DNA of 22,124 nt from a virus: positions 1-22,124 of the IMG/VR virus record IMGVR_UViG_3300030101_001247, one strand, 5' to 3'. The position numbers and the translations under genes are program-made. This document shows, piece by piece, positions 8,289 through 10,046 of this stretch (positions are counted from its first letter, which is position 1; every line of letters starts with the position of its first letter). The notes under the pieces were generated by a model that worked only from the letters and a program-made list of their open reading frames with translations, had not been told where the DNA came from and made no database searches.

Positions 8289-9098
8289 ATGGCGTCTACT
8301 TTAGATACCGCCTTTATCAAGCAGTTTGAGTCCGAAGTTCACATGGCTTATCAGCGTATGGGTTCTAAGCTAAAGAACACTATTCGTAATCAGCAGGTGA
8401 GCGGAAATGTTGTTCGTTTCCAAAAAATCGGCGCAGGAACTGCTTCCACAAAATCGCGTAACGGCAATATCACGCCTATGGAGTTGGTACACACCAACGT
8501 CGAGGCGACGATGGAAGACCATTATGCAGCCGAGTACATCGACAAGCTCGATGAACTCAAGACCAATATTGATGAGCGTCAAGCTGTAGCCACCTCGGCT
8601 GCTGCTGCACTTGGTCGTAAGACTGACGAGCTTATCTACACCGCTATGGATGCGGGTGCGAACTCTACGCAAATCCATGACACAAGCTCGGCCGTAGAAA
8701 AGGCTGATCTTCTGACTCTGTTTGAAACCTTTGGTACTGCAAATGTACCGGAAGATGGCCAACGCTATCTTGCGATGCACCCGAAAGGTTTTGCTGATCT
8801 GTTCCTTATCAACGAGTTTGCATCGTCTGACTTTGTTGGTGAGCAGAATCTGCCATTCGCAGGCGGCATGACTATGAAGCAGTTTCTTGGTTTCAACATC
8901 TTCTCAACCTCTGCAATCACTGCTGGTAAGAATATCGCATACCATCAGAATGCGGTTGGTATCGGGGTAAACTCTGAAGTTTCGACTGAAGTAAACTATA
9001 TCCCTGAGAAGGTATCGCACCTTACCACCTCGATGATGTCGATGGGCGCAGTTGTTATTGATGACAACGGTGTCTACGAAGTCCTCGACAACAACTAA
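8289..9098 (+). CDS. Major capsid protein
   Basis: This 269-residue protein matches the compact phage capsid family found in marine podoviruses (Pfam Phage_capsid_2, from memory). The N-terminal FIKQFESEVHMAYQRMGSKL is followed by NTIRNQQVSGNVVRFQKIG, then YIDKLDELKTNIDERQAVA (about residues 82-100). The middle has DGQRYLAMHPKGFADLF, and the C-terminal strand region ends SMGAVVIDDNGVYEVLDNN. It is shorter than T7 gp10A (about 345 residues) but normal for this family. It forms the icosahedral shell on the scaffold. AGGAAGGA at 8274-8281 is a strong ribosome-binding site. An 80-base untranslated gap and a candidate promoter precede it. I see no frameshift site giving a 10B-like extended form. 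Confidence 0.93.
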   Translation: MASTLDTAFIKQFESEVHMAYQRMGSKLKNTIRNQQVSGNVVRFQKIGAGTASTKSRNGNITPMELVHTNVEATMEDHYAAEYIDKLDELKTNIDERQAVATSAAAALGRKTDELIYTAMDAGANSTQIHDTSSAVEKADLLTLFETFGTANVPEDGQRYLAMHPKGFADLFLINEFASSDFVGEQNLPFAGGMTMKQFLGFNIFSTSAITAGKNIAYHQNAVGIGVNSEVSTEVNYIPEKVSHLTTSMMSMGAVVIDDNGVYEVLDNN

Positions 9099-9112: not shown

Positions 9113-9376
9113 ATGGCTTATTCTGCATCTGGTCTTACTCGCATGGCAGGCGGTGGTGGTCATAGCCTTTGGTTCTATGACTCGACTGACGCTCTGACTG
9201 CTGTTCGTGTGTCAGGATATTTCAACAATGCTGCTAGTATGCTGAATGTTGGTGATGTTATCTTTGTATATGATAGCGATGCACCAACAATGGGTATCTC
9301 AGTTGTTCTGTCGAACACTGGCTCTGTTGTTGATATTGCTGACGGCACGGCTCTGACCGTAAGCGACAGCGACTAA
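9113..9376 (+). CDS. Probable capsid decoration or minor head protein, 87 residues
   Basis: This starts 14 bases after the capsid stop, with GGGAG ahead of ATG 9113. The protein has MAYSASGLTRMAGGGGHSLW, then SGYFNNAASMLNVGDVIFVY, then a short beta-rich end, ISVVLSNTGSVVDIADGTAL. The 'YFN.A..MLNVGD.I.V' motif occurs in small proteins directly after the capsid gene in many marine phages. A beta-barrel decoration or head-stabilising protein is the likely role, from position and composition, not shown by a known fold. The TAA stop forms part of an AGGAG that is the only ribosome-binding-like sequence ahead of the next gene. Confidence 0.82.
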   Translation: MAYSASGLTRMAGGGGHSLWFYDSTDALTAVRVSGYFNNAASMLNVGDVIFVYDSDAPTMGISVVLSNTGSVVDIADGTALTVSDSD

Positions 9377-9458
9377 GGAGATTGGGCGGCGGGTGTTTCC
9401 CAGCGGTTGAGCGACCTTTGGTCTGGGTACACTAGGCACTCGCCGTCCAAACCATTAG
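9376..9458 (+). promoter_or_regulatory. Structured RNA between decoration protein and tail-tube A, with displaced ribosome-binding site
   Basis: AGGAG (9376-9380) is followed after three bases by a 12-pair stem. GGGCGGCGGGTG (9384-9395) pairs with CACTCGCCGTCC (9437-9448), including two G-U pairs that work only in the + strand RNA. Inside, CCCAG (9399-9403) pairs with CTGGG (9423-9427), around either GGTT/GACC (9405-9408/9413-9416) or GACC/GGTC (9413-9416/9420-9423). Ten bases later is the ATG of tail-tube A, with no other ribosome-binding site near. No T tract follows, so it is not a standard terminator. It lies where T7 has its late terminator between genes 10 and 11. Candidate roles are bringing AGGAG near the start (as in T4 genes 25 and 38), RNase III processing, or pausing. 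Confidence 0.65.
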
Positions 9459-10046
9459 ATGACATCAAGCGCAGCAAACTCATCTGTTGATATCGCCGCT
9501 CGTGCATTGACACTTATCGGGGCCAACCCGATTTCATCGTTTGATGATACGAGCACAGAAGCAACTGTTGCTAACAATATGTATGAGGATGTTGCACGAG
9601 CATCTTTATGTATGGCGCGATGGCGCTTTGCAACCAATCAACAAGTTCTAAACTTATTGTCTGACGAGCCAACTGGTCGTTTTGATCAGGCATATCAGCT
9701 TCCTGCAAGTCTGCTGATGCTTCATGCTTTGACAGTGAATGATCTAGTTGTTGATTATACTGTATATGGCGATAAGGCATTTGCCGATACGAATGAAGCA
9801 GATCAAGTAGTTGCAGATTTTACCTTTCGGGCTGAAGAGAACACTTGGCCTTCATATTTTACTTTGGCAGTAGAATATCAGCTTGCTGCAATCTTTGCGG
9901 CTGCGATTGCGCGTGATGATGGTTTGATGAGAATCATGGATGAGAAATACAAAGTTGCTATGTCTCAAGCACGCACTCTCGATTCACAACAACAAACTAC
10001 GCGTAAGCTGATAACGAACAGGTTCAAAGTTGAAAGGCGTAGTTAA
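9459..10046 (+). CDS. Tail-tube protein A (T7 gp11-like)
   Basis: This 195-residue gatekeeper protein is encoded just before tail-tube B, as in T7. The N-terminus has AARALTLIGANPISSFDD, then STEATVANNMYEDVARASLC, MARWRFATNQ and a YQLPASLLMLHALTVND stretch. The C-terminal helix has EYQLAAIFAAAIARDDGLM and ends in a basic tail. It docks as a ring under the portal and starts the tail tube. ATG 9459 gives the expected family N-terminus. Immediately upstream is CATTAG, with no ribosome-binding site; the nearest AGGAG is 78 bases away across the RNA fold. Its stop overlaps the next ATG (TAATG at 10046). Confidence 0.92.
   Translation: MTSSAANSSVDIAARALTLIGANPISSFDDTSTEATVANNMYEDVARASLCMARWRFATNQQVLNLLSDEPTGRFDQAYQLPASLLMLHALTVNDLVVDYTVYGDKAFADTNEADQVVADFTFRAEENTWPSYFTLAVEYQLAAIFAAAIARDDGLMRIMDEKYKVAMSQARTLDSQQQTTRKLITNRFKVERRS

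Follow-up and report, generated by a model that had tools for sequence, protein, structure and literature searches.

How does a ribosome reach the start codon of a tail gene when the only Shine-Dalgarno (SD) sequence for that gene lies 78 nt upstream, with a strong RNA hairpin in between? The question is raised by the junction in front of tail tube A in the window, i.e. the complete stretch of 22,124 nt (~22 kb) of IMG/VR record IMGVR_UViG_3300030101_001247, a marine phage. Its genes follow each other in the order terminase, portal, scaffold-like, internal protein, major capsid protein, 87-aa protein, tail tube A and tail tube B (phrog_376), and the closest cultured relative found was Pelagibacter phage Hodr (~51 % for the capsid protein, ~40 % for tail tube A). 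The features of the junction are as follows.

8289–9098, + strand: major capsid protein gene (phrog_3437), upstream of tail tube A and co-directional with it
9113–9376, + strand: 87-aa gene (phrog_18004, function unassigned), located between the capsid and tail-tube-A genes, with a TAA (9374–9376) that shares one base with the SD
9376–9380, + strand: SD AGGAG, the sole SD-like sequence for tail tube A; duplex with the anti-SD −8.2 kcal/mol
9382–9398, + strand: 5′ arm of the 17-bp stem, from folding and helix search
9399–9433, + strand: apical part, which contains a shorter inner helix (CCCAG/CTGGG, or another pairing) and is conserved in the nearest relatives only
9434–9450, + strand: 3′ arm of the 17-bp stem, from folding and helix search
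9451–9458, + strand: spacer of 8 nt from the stem to the start codon, no SD inside
9459–10046, + strand: tail tube A gene (phrog_394), the gene that the element would serve

A sequence-only reading of this stretch had located AGGAG exactly, and had described a stem of 12 pairs (9384–9395/9437–9448), two of them G-U, and an internal CCCAG/CTGGG helix. These pairs are present, with the two G-U pairs at 9386/9446 and 9392/9440, CCCAG at 9399–9403 and CTGGG at 9423–9427, but the helix is longer, i.e. 17 continuous pairs of which four are G-U. The sense-strand fold of 9376–9461 reached −38.6 kcal/mol (z −3.49, none of 200 shuffles as low), and the core helix −28.7 vs −10.2±2.6 in shuffles (none of 300 as low). 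Over the 110 bases from 9366 to 9475, the fold was stronger in the sense (z −2.87) than in the antisense direction (z −1.53), in line with the sense-strand RNA that the G-U pairs had suggested. The inner CCCAG/CTGGG helix is one possible pairing, found in the centroid, but the minimum-energy fold pairs the inner part otherwise. At 69 nt the hairpin is far larger than those of T4 and of most relatives, and none of 4227 Rfam families matched above its gathering score.

Since nothing SD-like lies between the stem and the start codon, AGGAG is indeed the only ribosome-binding-like site, at the linear distance of 78 nt previously noted. The folded distance had been put at about 13 bases and called somewhat long; it is 9 nt of unpaired RNA, i.e. 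one base before the stem and eight after it, and hence not long.

The element is very probably an accommodated (split) ribosome-binding site of the kind found at T4 genes 38 and 25, at the place that TPhi occupies in T7. The 30S subunit would bind AGGAG at 9376–9380 and the hairpin (9382–9450) would remain folded during initiation, which would put the ATG at 9459 at a normal distance from the SD and allow tail tube A to be translated. Acceptance of the folded hairpin by the 30S subunit, and the dependence of tail tube A on it, are inferred; rather more loosely, the hairpin might derive from a TPhi-like element ending the abundant capsid transcript, or still do part of its work. In the predicted ensemble with 30 nt flanks, the AUG of the window was mostly paired (unpaired probability 0.16) and the SD half open (0.56). 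In this longer fold, therefore, translation of tail tube A in the window may need an upstream ribosome, or may be weak.

The relatives show three solutions at this one junction. Searches of IMG/VR with the capsid and tail-tube-A proteins, plus seven annotated phage records, yielded 319 usable junctions, 148 of them distinct. Relatives in which the interval is unpaired or absent and tail tube A has an ordinary nearby ribosome-binding site had been named beforehand as counter-evidence; relatives without the hairpin exist, but 98 of the 148 distinct junctions (class A) keep the same architecture, i.e. stop codon, SD, hairpin, 5–12 nt and ATG, with no SD 3′ of the hairpin. The others largely fall into two groups. 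In class B (24 junctions, plus L117 and a few mixed cases) a hairpin, often with a T tract, is followed by an SD and then the ATG; members include Methylophilales phage MEP301, Dunaliella virus SI2, Vibrio phage 1.257 and a gut contig. In class S (21 junctions) the distance from stop to start is −1 to 13 nt; there is no hairpin and, within the clade, mostly no good SD. L117 was removed from class A, as the helix finder had spanned its real terminator. A tree was built from 142 tail-tube-A proteins; its main clade has 118 members, of which 95 are class A, 13 class S and 10 class B, and the whole tree requires at least 14 class changes. After clustering at 85 % protein identity class A alone filled 26 of 52 clusters. 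Considering that 13 of the 118 clade members lack it, the hairpin is not essential in general. Among 1002 ORFs of the window and 10 near-complete relatives, strong matches to the arrangement were confined to the tail-tube-A junction, where it occurred in nine genomes; three weak matches lay elsewhere.

The 87-aa capsid-adjacent protein has length variants, and another upstream gene is found in L273. In L007 and L239 the small gene is missing and tail tube A directly follows the capsid gene, with the element kept; the element therefore belongs to the start of tail tube A.

The spacing in class A was compared with that of ordinary genes. SD positions were scored in one register, i.e. by the base opposite a fixed anti-SD base, and in this register ordinary genes of these phages have a median spacing of 4.0 (capsid, n=108, sd 1.4; small gene, n=127, sd 1.1). 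Class A shows the same median of 4.0 (sd 2.2, 97 % between 1 and 8, register-normalised) if the hairpin is left out of the count; with the hairpin included, the linear spacing is 25 (range 21–75) and tracks hairpin length (r 0.98), the hairpins themselves measuring 18–69 nt (73 sequences). The distance from stem to ATG is 5–12 nt in all 98 class A junctions (mean 7.4, sd 1.2) and at least 14 nt in class B, L117 being the exception; it separates the classes despite having played no part in their definition. The distance between SD and stem (sd 1.2) is also steadier than that between SD and upstream stop (sd 2.4), and the strongest SD-like match in class A spacers is merely −2.3 kcal/mol.

The stem itself is conserved as a structure. 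In 52 distinct hairpins with four-base loops, eight of nine stem pairs have changed on both sides, giving 81 two-sided cells vs 28.5±4.2 after shuffling (0 of 500) and 2–19 in slid registers. Choosing the hairpins with a helix finder raises the proportion of paired cells, but two-sided change does not arise in this way. Even the closing pair varies between C-G, A-U, G-C and U-G. The compensating changes that the sequence-only reading had called for are thus found in the stem, but conservation of the inner part is limited to the nearest sequences, and the alignment covers the relatives with four-base loops, the window with its own long-looped subclade lying outside it. Taken together, the conserved architecture, the conserved folded spacing, the covariation and the mutually exclusive alternatives in relatives support the reading as a split site, i.e. 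a hairpin that brings a distant SD close as in T4 genes 25 and 38, which had been proposed from the window.

The loops of the relatives are often UUCG or GNRA tetraloops. In the subclade nearest to the window (L083, L084, L087, L088 and L090–L094), the variable loops retain a CTCCC core, complementary to GGAG of the SD. The complement extends to 7 bp in L093 and L094 (GGAGTTT/AAACTCC) and to 8 bp in L095 (CCTTGGTC with GACTAAGG). A shuffle test for an SD-loop pseudoknot was strong for these three, borderline for the window (p 0.04) and not significant for most others; judged from such complementarity, a pseudoknot in this subclade is possible, and we do not claim it. Sequestering of the SD by the 3′ spacer was rejected as a general feature, the flanks pairing no better than letter-shuffled ones (median p 0.62).

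The hairpin could instead serve the upstream capsid transcript, as a weak intrinsic terminator or a barrier to 3′-exonucleases, with the position of SD and start a by-product. The place is, as had been recognized, that of the T7 late terminator, between the capsid and tail-tube-A genes, and several outgroups carry a true terminator there: MT838907 and Vibrio phage 1.257 have a hairpin and T tract followed by an SD. UUCG and GNRA loops are common in terminators too, and the SD-hairpin-ATG arrangement also occurs behind unrelated capsid and gp32-like genes, i.e. abundant messages, which a role in ending or protecting the capsid message would explain. However, the T tract was rightly reported missing: in the window the stem is followed by no U tract (sequence ACCATTAG), and in 97 of 98 class A junctions no T run longer than three occurs within the 10 nt 3′ of the stem (T score 1.07 vs 1.90 in class B), which argues against efficient intrinsic termination. 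A search for a T7-type RNA polymerase gene found none in 15 records (the window and 14 relatives), which weighs little against this explanation as no positive control gave a signal. A terminator or barrier leaves unexplained why the folded SD-start spacing equals the normal value and why SD and hairpin are lost jointly, and we consider this explanation unlikely. Two outgroup phages, L133 (3653–3712) and L135 (3427–3470), have a clear intrinsic terminator (GC hairpin and TTTTTT) and then an ordinary SD at the tail-tube-A junction.

Coupled re-initiation would assign the hairpin another task, i.e. drawing the start near the upstream stop so that the terminating ribosome restarts, with the SD a mere helper. 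That coupling is accepted at this junction is indicated by the hairpin-less relatives in the clade, such as L017, L019, L020, L024, L026, L028, L048, L055, L056 and L058, where the small gene's stop and the tail-tube-A start are −1 to 6 nt apart and most sequences have little or no SD. The effective stop-to-start distance in class A is likewise short (13.3 nt), but it is more variable when folded (sd 2.8) than the folded SD-start distance (sd 2.2), the SD adjoins the hairpin even where up to 13 nt separate stop and stem, and the two relatives without the small gene retain the element behind the capsid gene. Stop-start coupling is the likely solution in class S and may add to class A too, yet as the explanation of the element it is quite improbable. 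The third alternative, an RNase III processing site separating capsid from tail messages, had been left room by the sequence-only reading. T7 late mRNA is processed by RNase III, and the 17-bp stem of the window with its further inner pairing could suggest the same; however, the helix stays below the long duplex of about two turns expected of such sites, the stems of 95 of 98 class A junctions are only 7–12 bp and thus short for RNase III, which takes away most of that room. We regard this alternative as extremely unlikely, and a split ribosome-binding site remains the preferred reading.

There are indications that the arrangement is more widespread. A pattern restricted to UUCG loops (AGGA, GGGGCUUCGGCCCC, 3–11 nt, ATG) matched at least 120 IMG/VR stretches, vs 67 when GTA replaced ATG and 17 when ACGT replaced AGGA; the matches overstate bridged sites as some of them are ordinary A-tract/T-tract terminators with AGGA inside the stem. 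Among the matches listed, the ATG opens an ORF of at least 60 aa in 101 of 120, and nearly all have an ORF ending a few bases before the SD. The upstream genes among the matches listed include those for major head proteins of several families (phrog_283, 1328, 371 and 10) and for single-strand DNA binding proteins (phrog_224 and 1192); also among the matches listed (L359–L478), a 92-aa ORF follows a protein of ~325 aa (320–335 aa, function unassigned) in 25 cases. Speculatively, and with more doubt than conviction, SD-hairpin-ATG could be a device that phages commonly use downstream of genes with very high expression, such as unrelated capsid families and gp32-like genes: one hairpin would close or protect the abundant upstream message and, once folded, would leave the next gene translatable, though at a set lower rate. 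The present clade would have derived the device from a TPhi-like terminator that lost its U tract and whose SD moved to the 5′ side, and in the subclade of the window SD-complementary loops might add a pseudoknot switch.

Gene finders that seek an SD just before the start would class such genes as SD-less. Moreover, hairpin length, stem and loop vary in this natural series while the folded spacing is held, which makes the rule that the 30S subunit follows readable and testable. Since terminator plus SD, bridged SD and stop-start coupling exclude each other at this junction, they also form a clear evolutionary series at the podovirus capsid-tail boundary. In the literature searched, which covered few subscription papers, we found no report of the tail-tube-A junction element in marine podoviruses.

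To our knowledge, ribosome sites bridged by a hairpin are known mainly from two T4 genes. These two and T7 gene 11 were scored as controls by the same method as the relatives: T4 genes 25 and 38 fell into class A, and T7 gene 11 into class B. The element shares with TPhi, which in T7 lies between the capsid gene (10) and the tail tubular A gene (11), the place in the gene order and a strong hairpin, but in T7 the hairpin is followed by TTTTTT and an SD of its own (AAGGAGG), whereas the window lacks the T tract and has its SD before the hairpin. There is also a resemblance to the CUUCGG intercistronic hairpins of phages (Tuerk et al. 1988, cited in PMC8948821), which have several functions: many relatives carry C(UUCG)G loops in intergenic hairpins. 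Here, however, the loop may just as well be GNRA or other, and it is the position relative to SD and start that is conserved.

The closest likeness is to T4. For gene 38, a reduction of the SD-start spacing from 22 to 5 is experimentally established (PMC3014915); at the gene 37–38 junction, AAGGAG, a UUCG hairpin, AAAT and ATG follow each other, and no SD lies 3′ of the hairpin (linear 20, folded 0 in register units), as in our element, which serves another gene in another phage group and, in the window, has a hairpin of 69 rather than 20 nt. For gene 25, the spacing is reduced from 27 to 11, with proof from reporters and probing and conservation in T-even phages (PMC3014915). A conserved hairpin likewise separates SD and start at the gene 26–25 junction (linear 25, folded 7 in register units), but there in close T-even relatives only, whereas the tail-tube-A element covers a more divergent group with extensive covariation. 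The principle is already known; what is new is a well-conserved case, found at a new junction and documented by far more natural sequences.
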